Position numbers and translations under genes: made by a program
In this document: positions 31,653 through 36,540 of the stretch, piece by piece
Layout: each line of letters begins with the position of its first letter
Position numbering within the stretch: position 1 is the first letter of the stretch
From: Chloroflexota bacterium
GTDB taxonomy: Bacteria > Chloroflexota > Anaerolineae > UBA4142
Direction of reading: 5' to 3'
DNA: 64,000 nt
Assembly: GCA_016219275.1 (NCBI GenBank)
Contig: JACRBM010000088.1
Location: forward strand, 62,001-126,000
Notes under the pieces: generated by a model
What the model saw: the letters and a program-made list of their open reading frames with translations, nothing else
What the model was told of the DNA's origin: nothing
The model's database searches: none

Positions 31653-32156
31653 CTATGGAAGATCGCGCACACGCGCGCGATGCGTCGTTAAGGTCACGCG
31701 TCCGCCGAAACCAACTTCGGGCTTGAGCGCGATGACGCGATCGCGAATGTGAAACTGGGGGTTGCCGATTTCGCCGATGCGATACGTAATGCGCGTGAAG
31801 GGCTTGGCGATGCCTCGCACGGCAAAGGGTCCGCCGGTGTGAAATAAATCGTCGAGGTCTTGCGGCGCGGCGACCATCGGCGGCGTGCCGCGCGGATCGG
31901 CGAAAGTGACCGCGTGTTCGATCAGCATTCCATTGGTGGCGGTGAATTCCTCGGTCACGTCGAGATCGAAAATCGAATTGTGCCAGGTCAGCACGACCGG
32001 CTCGCCATCGCGTAACGCGGCGGAAAAAATTGTGCGTCCCGTTTCGGGATCGGTCAGTTCGAGTTGCGTGAATCCTGGCAATTCGGCTTGGAGACCCAGG
32101 ATGACCGCGACGAGGAGGAAGAGGAGTGAAACGAGAATTGGAATTGTGCGACGCAT
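31653..32156 (-). CDS. DUF1850 domain protein, TRAP-associated
   Basis: 167 residues with an N-terminal membrane segment (TIPILVSLLFLLVAVILGLQ). The core LTWHNSIFDLDVTEEFTATN and the end RVIALKPEVGFGGRVTLTTH fit DUF1850, a family repeatedly found next to TAXI-type TRAP transporters. It lies 43 bases after the TAXI binding-protein gene, completing the operon, and probably has an accessory role at the membrane. The ATG at 32156 is preferred over 32180, which lies in a repeat. Confidence 0.82.
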   Translation of the reverse strand: MRRTIPILVSLLFLLVAVILGLQAELPGFTQLELTDPETGRTIFSAALRDGEPVVLTWHNSIFDLDVTEEFTATNGMLIEHAVTFADPRGTPPMVAAPQDLDDLFHTGGPFAVRGIAKPFTRITYRIGEIGNPQFHIRDRVIALKPEVGFGGRVTLTTHRARVRDLP

Positions 32157-32165
32157 AGTACAGTT

Positions 32166-32193
32166 GTAGGGGCGACGCATGTGTCGCCCCTAC
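32166..32193. repeat. Family B palindrome in the TAXI operon
   Basis: GTAGGGGCGACGCA then TGTGTCGCCCCTAC, one central mismatch. It lies between the TAXI binding-protein gene and the DUF1850 gene, and differs by one base from the copy inside AnmK-MurQ. Confidence 0.85.
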
Positions 32194-32199
32194 CGTGTG

Positions 32200-33261
32200 T
32201 TATTTGATCACACCTTTTTCGACAAAGTACTTTTTCGCGCCGGGATGCAGATACTCTTGCGCGTCCGGACTCATTTGCTTGACCGCAAGTTCGGGCGTCA
32301 GTTTGGTGACTTCTTTCGCTACTGCCGTCAGGTCGCTCTTGTTGTCGAACATCGCCTTGAGAATTTGATACAAGCGATCTTCCGGGAAACTGTCCATCAC
32401 GTAGAGCACCGCGGTGATGGCGAGCGTGTCAATATCCGCGTCTACGCTGGAGTACGAACCTTTGGGGAACGTGGTCTTGTGAAAGACGCCGGGATTACCT
32501 TTCATAATTTTGTCCGCGGCGTCGCCCGAAACCGGCAAGAGCACCATCTTCAAACCGGGCGTCGAAGCGAGATCAATGATCGAGGCAGTGGGCACCGCGC
32601 CGCTCCAGAAGAACGCGTCAATCTTGCCGTCGCGCAACGCGGCAACCGATTCGGTCGCGCCCAGTTTTTCGCGCGTGAGGTCCTTGCTCCAATCCATGCC
32701 GAGCGCCTTGAATACGTAATCGGCTTGCTCTTCCGTGCCGCTGTTCGGCGCGCCGGTCGAAACGCGCTTGCCTTTCAGGTCGGTCACGGCTTTGACGTTC
32801 GTCCCTTCCTTAGTCACGATGTGCAAGGGTTGTTCGTAGAAACTGAGCACCGCGCGAATTTTGTGCGCGCCAGTCAACCCAGGCATCGTGCCTTTGTTGA
32901 CCCAGACGCCGTGATAATCGTACGCAAACGACATGCGCGATTTGTTCGCGGTCAACAGTTTCAGATTGTCGAGCGCGGCGGTCGTCGCTTCGACCGACGC
33001 ATCGGTGTTCGGCACGTTCTTGGCGATGACGCCGCTGATCGCGCCGCCGAGCGGATACCACACACCACCCGTGCCGCCCGTCGCAATGCTGAACGAAAGT
33101 TTTTCGGTGGACGCGGCAGGCGCTTTGGTCGGCTCCGCCGCGGGCGCCTTCGCGGTAGCGGGCGGGGCAGATGTGGGCGCGGCGGTTGGCGCGGCGCACG
33201 CCGCGAGCATCGCCACGACGACAACCATCAATACAAGGGCGCTCCATTTTCGTACGTTCAT
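32200..33261 (-). CDS. TAXI family TRAP transporter substrate-binding lipoprotein
   Basis: 353 residues. Lipobox MLAACAAP after MNVRKWSALVLMVVVVA, then a Pro/Ala/Thr linker. The TAXI start SFSIATGGTGGVWYPLGGAI is diagnostic, and AVTDLKGKRVSTGAPNSGTE matches the family ligand-binding region. It captures a solute, often a dicarboxylate or glutamate-like acid, for the fused permease encoded just before it. AGGAGGTG precedes the ATG at 33261; the upstream open frame is shadow. Confidence 0.93.
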   Translation of the reverse strand: MNVRKWSALVLMVVVVAMLAACAAPTAAPTSAPPATAKAPAAEPTKAPAASTEKLSFSIATGGTGGVWYPLGGAISGVIAKNVPNTDASVEATTAALDNLKLLTANKSRMSFAYDYHGVWVNKGTMPGLTGAHKIRAVLSFYEQPLHIVTKEGTNVKAVTDLKGKRVSTGAPNSGTEEQADYVFKALGMDWSKDLTREKLGATESVAALRDGKIDAFFWSGAVPTASIIDLASTPGLKMVLLPVSGDAADKIMKGNPGVFHKTTFPKGSYSSVDADIDTLAITAVLYVMDSFPEDRLYQILKAMFDNKSDLTAVAKEVTKLTPELAVKQMSPDAQEYLHPGAKKYFVEKGVIK

Positions 33262-33311
33262 CAAACACCTCCTAAAGAATTTGGTTTGAACCCAGGGTTG
33301 GAACCCTGACA

Positions 33312-35189
33312 TCATGTTACCGGCACATGGCGATTGAACCAATAATGCCGCCCGGCGACAAGCGCGCCAAACACAATCGGCAGGATACCGATGGGCGTCA
33401 AGTCGAATTGATCCACGACCATCCAAATTGCAACCGCGATGAGCGCCGCGCGTTCGATCAAATGCAACGGCGCGCGATAATATCCGACGATGCCCAGCGA
33501 GAGGAAAAAGAGCGCGAACCCGCTGTTGATGACTGCCATCACAAAACTGGGCAAGGTCGCGCCGACGATGAGTAAACTCGCGCCTTCCTTCGTCGCGGAA
33601 AAGAGGAACGGCACGAGGAATGCCGGGAGCGAATACTTCCACGCTTGCATCATCGAAGCGAACGGATTGCCGCCCGTGACTGCCGCCGCCGCGGATGGCG
33701 ATAACCCCACCGGCGGGGACACCTCCGACAACACCGCGAAATAAAACGCGAGCAAATGCGCGACGTGTTCCGGAATGCCGACCTTGATGAGCGCCGGCGC
33801 AACCATCACGACCGTCATAATGTACGTTGCAGTGATCGGCAAACTCAAGCCGACGATGAACGACGTGAACAACGCGAGCACGAGCGCGAGCAACACGTTG
33901 CCGCCGCTCAACGACATGATGAGTTGCGAAATTTTCAGACCCAGCCCGGTCAACGAAAACACGCCGACGATCAGTCCTGCCGCCGCGAGGAGCACCGCGA
34001 CTGGCAGCATATTCTTCGCGCCTTCAATCGTCGCATCAATCAAGCGTTTGGGTGTGAGCCAGTCTTTGCGATCCTTGCTGAGAAAACTCGTCGCGACGAC
34101 GCAGGCAATCGCATAGATCGCGCAATTTTCCGGCGACAGACCAAAGGCGAGCAGAATGACGAGCAAGACGAGCGAGATCAAGTGATAACTTTTGGTTCGC
34201 ATCACTTGCCAGAACGTCATCCCGGTTGAATCGGGCGGCGCAAAGTGGTACTTTTGCGCCTCCAGGTCTACGACGAAAAACGAGCCGAGATAGTATAACA
34301 ATGTCGGCATCGTCACCATCACGACGACATCCCAAAACGAGACGCGCAGAAACTGCATGATGAGAAATGCCGCCGCGCCCATCAACGGCGGTGAAATCAC
34401 CGCGCCGATGCCGCCGGCGGAAATCAAGCCCGCCGCCAGGTCCGCCGAGTAGCCGGCTTTTTTAAGGATGGGCCACATGATCGGCGTGACGGACATGGTC
34501 GTCGCGACGCCGCTCCCTTGCGGACCACCCAGCAACGCGGTGGTCACGACTGCGCCGCGTCCCGCGCTCGACGATTTGCGCCCCATCACCGCGAGCGCGA
34601 GCTCGAGCCAAAAACTGCCCGCGCCCGCCGCGTCCATCAACACGCCGTACACGACGAACAACATCACGAACGACACGCTCACCGAAATCGGCACGCCGAA
34701 AATTCCTTCGAGCGTCATGTACATGTGCCCGACGATGCGGTCGAAATCGTACCCTTTGTGTCCGAGCGGACCGGGAATGAAATTGCCGAACAGCGCGTAG
34801 AGTAAAAAGCCGATCAGCACGAGCGTGAACGTCATGTCCACCATACGGCGGGAGAGTTCGATCAACAACGCGATGACGAGGATACCAAAAATCAGGTCGG
34901 GCACTTCGGGGAGCGTCGAACGACGGATGAAGTGATCGAGGTCGAAGAGTGCGTAGACGATACTCGCGACGCCAATCACTGCAAGCGCGATGTCGAGCGC
35001 GCTACCCCAGCGACCGGCTTTGGGCGAAAGCGGGTATGCCAGGAATGCCAAGAGGTAAATAAATCCAAGGTGCACCATGCGGAACGTGTACGTGTCTATC
35101 GGCGCAACCGCGCCGTACAACGACCACACCACGAATCCAATGTAGAACGCGCCGACTAGAATGGCGGCGATGCCTTTGAACTCGCGCAC
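33312..35189 (-). CDS. TRAP transporter fused permease (4TM/12TM, DctQM type)
   Basis: 625 residues with about 16-18 hydrophobic segments. The small-subunit part comes first (residues 1-130), then the large permease with VPISVSVSFVMLFVVYGVLM, GGPQGSGVATTMSVTPIMWP and GGIGAVISPPLMGAAAFLIM, and the symmetric VSPPVGLSPSAAAAVTGGNP. It drives ion-coupled uptake with the TAXI binding protein. GTG start at 35189 with CGAGGAGG upstream. The operon order permease, binding protein, DUF1850 is standard. The leader contains a possible terminator. Confidence 0.93.
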   Translation of the reverse strand: MREFKGIAAILVGAFYIGFVVWSLYGAVAPIDTYTFRMVHLGFIYLLAFLAYPLSPKAGRWGSALDIALAVIGVASIVYALFDLDHFIRRSTLPEVPDLIFGILVIALLIELSRRMVDMTFTLVLIGFLLYALFGNFIPGPLGHKGYDFDRIVGHMYMTLEGIFGVPISVSVSFVMLFVVYGVLMDAAGAGSFWLELALAVMGRKSSSAGRGAVVTTALLGGPQGSGVATTMSVTPIMWPILKKAGYSADLAAGLISAGGIGAVISPPLMGAAAFLIMQFLRVSFWDVVVMVTMPTLLYYLGSFFVVDLEAQKYHFAPPDSTGMTFWQVMRTKSYHLISLVLLVILLAFGLSPENCAIYAIACVVATSFLSKDRKDWLTPKRLIDATIEGAKNMLPVAVLLAAAGLIVGVFSLTGLGLKISQLIMSLSGGNVLLALVLALFTSFIVGLSLPITATYIMTVVMVAPALIKVGIPEHVAHLLAFYFAVLSEVSPPVGLSPSAAAAVTGGNPFASMMQAWKYSLPAFLVPFLFSATKEGASLLIVGATLPSFVMAVINSGFALFFLSLGIVGYYRAPLHLIERAALIAVAIWMVVDQFDLTPIGILPIVFGALVAGRHYWFNRHVPVT

Positions 35190-35264
35190 GCAAACCTCCT
35201 CGTTTGAATTCGGCTATGTGCCAGGATTTTTTTCGAGCGCAAACAGACGGTACCGTCGGCAAAT

Positions 35265-35298
35265 AAAAAACGTCTTCGCCAACTTGCAGGCGAAGGCG
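35265..35298 (-). terminator. Intrinsic terminator (or attenuator) upstream of the TRAP operon
   Basis: Minus strand CTTCGCC, 8-base loop, GGCGAAG, then ACGTTTTTTATTT. It can end rodA operon transcripts and also interrupts those from the promoter at 35345-35373. Confidence 0.75.
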
Positions 35299-35344
35299 TG
35301 CGCCACCTTCACGACATCGTGGTCGTCTCATCAGCGTTGGCACA
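35265..35344 (-). ncRNA. Candidate structured leader or small RNA before the TRAP operon
   Basis: From the promoter at 35345-35373 an RNA would start near 35341-35338 and run through a hairpin ACGAC/GUCGU flanked by CUGAUGAG and GAAGG, enclosed by a possible GUGCCA/UGGC outer stem. It then reaches an intrinsic terminator (CUUCGCC, loop UGCAAGUU, GGCGAAG, then ACG and six U). The GTG of the TRAP gene is another 75 bases on. This fits a riboswitch/attenuator or an independent small RNA of about 75 nt. No known class was recognised. Confidence 0.45.
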
Positions 35345-35373
35345 ATTATACCCGGAGCGCAACGAAAAATCAA
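35345..35373 (-). promoter_or_regulatory. Promoter between rodA and the TRAP operon
   Basis: Minus strand TTGATT (35373-35368), 17-base spacer, TATAAT (35350-35345). The -35 nearly touches the rodA stop. Confidence 0.7.
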
Positions 35374-35377
35374 ATTC

Positions 35378-36517
35378 CTACGCATAACGCTTGCCGGATC
35401 CCTCCAATTGCAAACCGGTGTGCCGCAGTAAAATGCTCTGTGCGATGCCCAGCCCTGCCATCAACGTGATGAGCGAACTCCCGCCCGAACTGACGAAGGG
35501 CAAGGGCACTCCGACGGCGGGCACCAGCCCCAAATTCATCGCGAGGTTGACCCAGCTCTGAATGAAGATCACCGCCGCCACCCCCACCGCGATCAGTTTG
35601 CCGTCGGGTGTGCGCGCGAGCCGCGCGATGCGAATCAAGCGCAGGATGATGAACACGATGAGCGCGAGCACGAACAGCGAACCGACGAATCCTAGTTCCT
35701 CGCCGATGACCGAAAAAATGAAATCGGTTTGGCGAATACGGAGAAACCGCAATTGACTTTGCGTGCCGCTGCAAAAACCCAACCCCCAAAAACCGCCCGC
35801 GCCAATCGCGATGCGCGCTTGCGTCACGTTGTAGCCGGAACCGAGCGGGTCGCGCGTCGGATCGAGAAATGCCATCACGCGTTCCACTTGATACGCGCGC
35901 AGATTCGGAAAAACCACAAACGGCGCAACGACGGCGAGCACGCCGGCAATGATCAACACGTTGCGCCAGCGCATGCCGGCGGCAATCGCCATGACGCCCC
36001 AGGTTGCCGCAATCACCATCGTCGTGCCCAGGTCGGGTTGCGCAAAGATCAACGCCATCGGCACGGCGGCGAACAGAAACGAGATGCCCAGGTTGCGCCA
36101 GCGCGCCATTTGCTCCGCGTGGTCGCCCATGTATTTCGCCGAGACCAGGATGAGCGCGAGCTTGGTCGCCTCCGAAGGTTGCAGCAAGGTCACGCCCAGG
36201 TTGATCCAACGTTGCGCGCCAAACCGCACCTCCGCCAAAATCACCACGCCGAGTAGCGCGATGATGCCGCCCCAAATCAACCAGCGCAGCGCGCCCCACA
36301 AGCGATAGTCCACAAACGCGAGCGCGAACAGCACGCCGACGCCGACGACGCCGAACAACATCTGACGCAACGCCGGACTCTCCCAGTCGAGCGACTCGCC
36401 GGTGATGCACGCGGTCGCGCTGTAGATCATCGTGATGCCGATGACGACCAGGAGGAGCGTTGCGCCGAGTAGCCAAAAATCGAAATGCGTAAAACGTGGA
36501 CGCGATAAACGTTCCAT
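35378..36517 (-). CDS. rodA: RodA, rod-shape SEDS glycosyltransferase
   Basis: 379 residues, ten hydrophobic segments. SEDS motifs include VVIGITMIYSATA, LQPSEATKLALILVSAKYMG, AQPDLGTTMVIAATWGVMAI and PLPFVSSGGSSLITLMAGLG. It polymerises lipid II during elongation together with a class B PBP, here mrdA in the same cluster. An ATG at 36517 follows an in-frame GTG; neither has a clear ribosome site. The presence next to mrdA rather than divisome genes favours RodA over FtsW. Confidence 0.93.
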   Translation of the reverse strand: MERLSRPRFTHFDFWLLGATLLLVVIGITMIYSATACITGESLDWESPALRQMLFGVVGVGVLFALAFVDYRLWGALRWLIWGGIIALLGVVILAEVRFGAQRWINLGVTLLQPSEATKLALILVSAKYMGDHAEQMARWRNLGISFLFAAVPMALIFAQPDLGTTMVIAATWGVMAIAAGMRWRNVLIIAGVLAVVAPFVVFPNLRAYQVERVMAFLDPTRDPLGSGYNVTQARIAIGAGGFWGLGFCSGTQSQLRFLRIRQTDFIFSVIGEELGFVGSLFVLALIVFIILRLIRIARLARTPDGKLIAVGVAAVIFIQSWVNLAMNLGLVPAVGVPLPFVSSGGSSLITLMAGLGIAQSILLRHTGLQLEGSGKRYA

Positions 36518-36540
36518 CACTTTTTTGTATCTACTCAGGT

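Follow-up and report, generated by a model that had tools for sequence, protein, structure and literature searches.

Does the DNA between rodA and a TRAP transporter operon in this Chloroflexota bacterium encode a riboswitch or a small RNA, or does it carry a terminator of a plainer kind? We addressed this question in a 64,000-nt stretch of the genome, hereafter the window. All features of the leader region lie on the minus strand, and the coordinates below are those of the window.

35378..36520, minus strand: rodA (FtsW/RodA/SpoVE), the gene upstream of TRAP (Pfam PF01098, E 2.9e-93)
35380-35378, minus strand: TAG stop codon of rodA (sequence)
35345..35373, minus strand: TRAP-operon promoter TTGATT-17-TATAAT (sequence; conserved before the TRAP orthologs in G002, G006 and G012), with the -35 TTGATT at 35373-35368, the -10 TATAAT at 35350-35345 and a 17-nt spacer
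35311..35341, minus strand: leader segment GCCAACGCTGATGAG plus the ACGAC/GTCGT hairpin (sequence); ACGAC at 35326-35322, GTCGT at 35315-35311, flanks CTGATGAG at 35334-35327 and GAAGG at 35310-35306
35292..35310, minus strand: possible alternative hairpin GAAGGUG-gcgca-CGCCUUC, overlapping the 5' arm of the terminator (minimum-energy fold of the 50-mer)
35265..35299, minus strand: intrinsic terminator, hairpin at 35299-35270 and TTTTTT at 35270-35265 (-15.3 kcal/mol)
35246..35257, no strand assigned: perfect palindrome of 12 bp, GACGGTACCGTC, located past the terminator and ahead of the TRAP ribosome-binding site (RBS) (sequence)
35195..35200, minus strand: Shine-Dalgarno AGGAGG of the TRAP gene (sequence; context TTCAAACsAGGAGG also found in G006)
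33312..35189, minus strand: TRAP fused permease (DctM), GTG start at 35189 (Pfam PF06808, E 1.2e-61)
32200..33450, minus strand: TAXI-type solute-binding protein (NMT1_3; Pfam PF16868, E 1e-64)
31653..32180, minus strand: third operon gene, a small protein in a position typical of DUF1850, without a Pfam match

The genes of the TRAP-TAXI operon are intact. The initial annotation had placed a near-consensus promoter between the rodA stop and the TRAP GTG, and this holds: TTGATT-17-TATAAT agrees with the consensus at 10 of 12 bases (1 such site found against 0.4 expected), and the exact form TTGATT-16/18-TATAAT occurs 7 times in the 6.16-Mb genome, with no occurrence in the reversed control. In the consensus promoters of this genome, TTGATT serves as the -35 element in 7 cases versus 84 for TTGACA. 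Transcription is expected to start near position 35338. A scan of the leader revealed no promoter of comparable quality downstream of the terminator, the best candidate matching at 7/12 positions, so transcripts from the TRAP promoter must pass the terminator, as had been claimed. The conservation of the promoter ahead of three TRAP orthologs, described below, supports its assignment to the TRAP operon. The palindrome GACGGTACCGTC further downstream is possibly an operator, or a product of chance.

The terminator itself, UUUUUUAUUU, is also confirmed. Its stem ACG-c-CTTCGCC / GGCGAAG-a-CGT closes an 8-nt loop, TGCAAGTT, and is followed directly by six U, with a hairpin energy of -15.3 kcal/mol. 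Among dinucleotide shuffles, 0.6% of those made from the 155-nt leader and 1.1% of those made from the 188-nt gap between rodA and TRAP had a terminator of such strength, so that this GC-rich hairpin before a U-tract is stronger than chance would give. A looser terminator scan did not rise above chance (1 found versus 1.5 expected). This is the only terminator in the 188-nt gap, and it lies between a real promoter and the RBS of the gene, which is the layout of a leader attenuator. Given the C-A mismatch in the stem and the 8-nt loop, the terminator may be weak.

We compared the locus with a family of 14 genomes, among which the window genome is the sole representative of its genus. True orthologs of the TRAP permease, with 73-82% identity, are present in G002, G006 and G012. 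In all three, TTGATTT-TATAAT with a 17-nt spacer stands directly ahead of the TRAP gene, the start codon follows about 44 nt after TATAAT, and there is no terminator in between. Since TTGATT is scarce in these genomes (5 to 9 promoters versus 74 to 95 with TTGACA), the common -35 element of the TRAP promoters does not reflect a general preference of the family. In the window genome, this promoter is present as well and lies 155 nt from the TRAP start; in the alignment, about 105 additional nt, terminator included, stand between promoter and RBS in the window genome only. The three orthologs all having a short, terminator-free leader, we regard the extra block as private to the window genome. 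When 20 further TRAP homologs, mostly from Deltaproteobacteria-type metagenome-assembled genomes (MAGs), were searched, none had a terminator between promoter and start; two weak terminator matches among them, in L081 and L084, are situated either at the apparent promoter or upstream of it. On a separate note, Syntrophaceae-type MAGs (L078, L083, L084 and L087) have parts of a long TRAP leader in common, without a terminator, with CGGTATTCCATC in three of them and a GAATACGGAGGC-like stretch before the start.

Regarding the upstream gene, rodA orthologs were found in 13 of the 14 family genomes, and in none of the relatives examined does rodA lie beside TRAP, so this adjacency is unique to the window genome. 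By a strict rule, a terminator follows rodA in 2 of the 10 other genomes with readable flanks, and rodA of G001 and G003 carries a terminator at a similar distance. That rodA requires a terminator is therefore plausible, not general.

The initial annotation had also described a 50-base segment able to fold, built on ACGAC/GUCGU with CTGATGAG and GAAGG at its flanks. These elements are indeed present, but the fold does not stand out from shuffled sequences. The inner fold gave z = -0.79 for the 50-mer and z = +0.10 for a 62-mer, and 19% of the shuffles equalled or exceeded the stability of the leader fold. As for a pairing that could compete with the 5' arm of the terminator, its energetic gain was equalled or beaten by 69% of the shuffles; no mutually exclusive antiterminator stronger than chance was found in the leader.

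The xanthine-I riboswitch, formerly the NMT1 motif, was named for NMT1-like genes, stands upstream of some genes in the family of the TAXI binding protein and is included in Rfam. Rfam gave no match to this or any other aptamer class, nor to any small RNA family: nothing was found in the window at the gathering score, and at relaxed E values (up to 10) only implausible plus-strand matches appeared, with none on the strand of the leader. Searching for the leader DNA itself yielded no second copy in its own genome, which speaks against a repeat element, and weak matches in 74 of 396 genomes of the class. The best 19 non-self matches were examined; their lengths range from 19 to 45 bases, and almost all of them fall inside long open reading frames, for which reason we read the weak matches as chance. 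No homolog of the leader was thus obtained in its own genome, in the 396 class genomes or upstream of 23 TRAP homologs, and the sequence is not conserved as a discrete small RNA would be in those 396 genomes. Together with the chance-level structure and the empty Rfam search, this leaves the proposed ligand-sensing leader for a TAXI-TRAP transporter unsupported, with nothing beyond the layout in its favour.

Several other identities for the leader were considered and rejected. A hammerhead ribozyme, suggested by core-like CUGAUGAG...GAAG and assessed by hand, lacks the closing pair of stem II, a fitting cleavage site and an Rfam match. No relative of a 37-aa reading frame turned up in the family (best E 0.11), which speaks against a gene remnant, and no Shine-Dalgarno sequence precedes any start in the leader, as a leader peptide would need. 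Finally, the similarity of the first 45 nt to the leaders of the orthologs was not convincing (p 0.03 to 0.49).

To contextualize the terminator, we sampled 90 consensus promoter regions of the window genome (L132-L221), defined by TTGACA or TTGATT plus an exact TATAAT, on which the following statistics rest. Under the strict rule, 22 of the 90 promoters were followed by a sense terminator within 200 nt, compared with 6 antisense terminators and 5.0 +/- 2.1 in shuffles; counting only up to the called start codon, the values were 21 sense versus 3 antisense. The cases with a terminator include an rRNA leader, two tRNA units and two riboswitches, one of the glycine and one of the c-di-GMP-II class, showing that the scanner finds real cases. 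Most of the remaining leader terminators have no Rfam match, as in those before cysK-like, panB-like, hisZ-like, proton-pumping-pyrophosphatase-like and threonine-dehydratase-like genes (names assigned by reading the translations). In the relatives, a small sample of 29 promoters gave 3 sense versus 2 antisense terminators, and we do not claim this habit for the whole family. Among the unmatched cases, the leader of the hisZ-like gene (L142, at G000:C7:48414 on the minus strand of the window genome) looks like a candidate attenuator: the 5' arm of its terminator, AACCAAGT, is duplicated upstream and then followed by a T run.

The explanation that we consider somewhat better than even is that of a leader terminator, species-specific as far as the compared genomes show, which would end rodA transcripts, stop most of those started at the TRAP promoter and let part of them read through. 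RNA polymerase would start at the ancestral TRAP promoter just past the rodA stop codon and, after about 75 nt, meet the hairpin and U6, where most transcripts would end. A fraction would continue about 75 nt further to the RBS and the GTG of the TRAP-TAXI operon. Transcripts of rodA would be ended by the same terminator, it being the sole one in the 188-nt gap. Partial premature termination would lower, and possibly gate, the expression of the TRAP operon, and an RNA of about 75 nt would be released from its leader as a by-product. The same layout is widespread in this genome (22/90 promoters), which is consistent with this explanation. The promoter and its conservation, the terminator, the order of the two and the lack of a terminator in the orthologs are seen in the DNA, and from these we infer the efficiency of termination, the read-through and the low TRAP expression; the terminator is known from one genome, and its presence does not imply selection for it.

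One could argue that the terminator is a plain rodA terminator, and that the TRAP promoter came to lie in front of it as TRAP arrived behind rodA, leaving TRAP to leaky read-through or silence. The single terminator in the gap, those at a similar distance behind rodA in G001 and G003 and the unique rodA-TRAP adjacency would all fit. However, the extra block of about 105 nt lies inside the TRAP leader, between the conserved promoter and the RBS, and not upstream of the promoter; this is not the order that a mere insertion after rodA would leave, and we judge such an origin unlikely. Quite unlikely, in our view, is a regulated attenuator or riboswitch, in which a ligand, a protein or an uncharged tRNA would bind the 5' 50 nt and toggle GAAGGUG/CGCCUUC (or GCCAAC/GUUGGC) against the terminator. 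Such alternative pairings do exist and overlap the arms of the terminator, and this genome has more leader terminators than expected by chance, some of them being known riboswitches. Yet the pairings are no stronger than in shuffles, Rfam is silent on the leader strand, the leader has no homolog anywhere searched, the orthologous TRAP leaders are short and without such a segment, and 50 nt is short for an aptamer. A bolder version seems to us highly doubtful: these 50 nt would be a very small, recently evolved sensor gating read-through into the TAXI-TRAP operon, and would join many other uncharacterised attenuators in the leaders of a Chloroflexota lineage whose consensus promoters show the layout in roughly a fifth to a quarter of cases.

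The other possibility raised at the outset was a small RNA of 75 nt. Under this reading, the TRAP leader would release an RNA of about 75 nt that has a function of its own, as the product of an independent gene. Promoter and terminator do bound a 75-nt unit, and leader-derived small RNAs of similar size are known in Escherichia coli, where ChiZ and IspZ were detected on Northern blots and serve as sponges (PMC7815308). The likeness lies in a short RNA of 60-90 nt that arises from a 5' UTR by premature termination (PMC7815308), while the RNA of the window is predicted from its sequence. This sequence is not conserved in any genome searched and matches no small RNA family, which makes such a gene very improbable. 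The closest known systems to the leader terminator that we favour are the intrinsic terminators and transcription attenuators of 5' UTRs, which have the same order of promoter, short leader, hairpin with U-tract, RBS and gene. Unlike them, the window leader is found in one species only and without a homolog, and the likeness is one of layout, not of switch or ligand.

As it stands, the site represents a common type of regulatory element, here in an organism that is unstudied. Little has been reported on leader RNAs that regulate TAXI-TRAP transporters (of 7 papers that mention TRAP transporter and riboswitch in their full text, none has either term in title or abstract), and a terminator in the leader would offer a direct way to learn when a TAXI-TRAP operon is expressed. 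More important may be the wider result, namely the enrichment of leader terminators in this genome and, in the family, a separate conserved leader with a proposed pseudoknot ahead of binding-protein genes. The window leader does not belong to the latter, scoring 2.3 bits on the wrong strand versus 40.7-50.8 bits for the members.

Seven members of this second leader follow promoters of the type TTGATTTATTT-N11..13-TATAAT, which occur once each in 9 of the 14 family genomes versus 1 of 382 other class genomes, always ahead of a transporter gene in those nine, and which may be bound by a common regulator. Of the nine, those in G002 and G012 drive TRAP orthologs, and the other seven drive binding-protein genes, of the ABC type in G000, G001, G005, G007 and G010 and of the TAXI type in G006 and G013. 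Those seven leaders measure about 150 nt and carry AAAGRGGUGAUGA...GGGUUYGCYGCCC. A covariance model built from them detected an eighth member before a TAXI gene of G011 (46.2 bits, E 6e-9), a sequence outside the set used for building the model. Eight of the 14 family genomes thus have the conserved block of about 50 nt (AAAGRGGUGAUGA..N..GGGUUYGCYGCCC) ahead of a binding-protein gene of the ABC branched-chain type or the TAXI type, its members being L133 (in the window genome at G000:C40:281393-281508, minus strand), L257, L258, L259, L260, L261/L032, L263 and L264.

The block can be drawn as a pseudoknot, with a hairpin GGGN/NCCC whose loop pairs with an upstream RGC; 95.9% of the cells are paired, and 2 of 500 shuffles reached its covariation score. 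In the eighth member, the variable pair of the hairpin is U-A. The pseudoknot was chosen after viewing the alignment of the seven sequences, once a nested alternative had scored lower, so this structure has moderate support. The block matches no Rfam family. Its 5' part resembles an extended Shine-Dalgarno sequence, but the ATG is not conserved (ATC in G007), which speaks against an upstream open reading frame. We regard the block as a candidate for a new cis-regulatory RNA.
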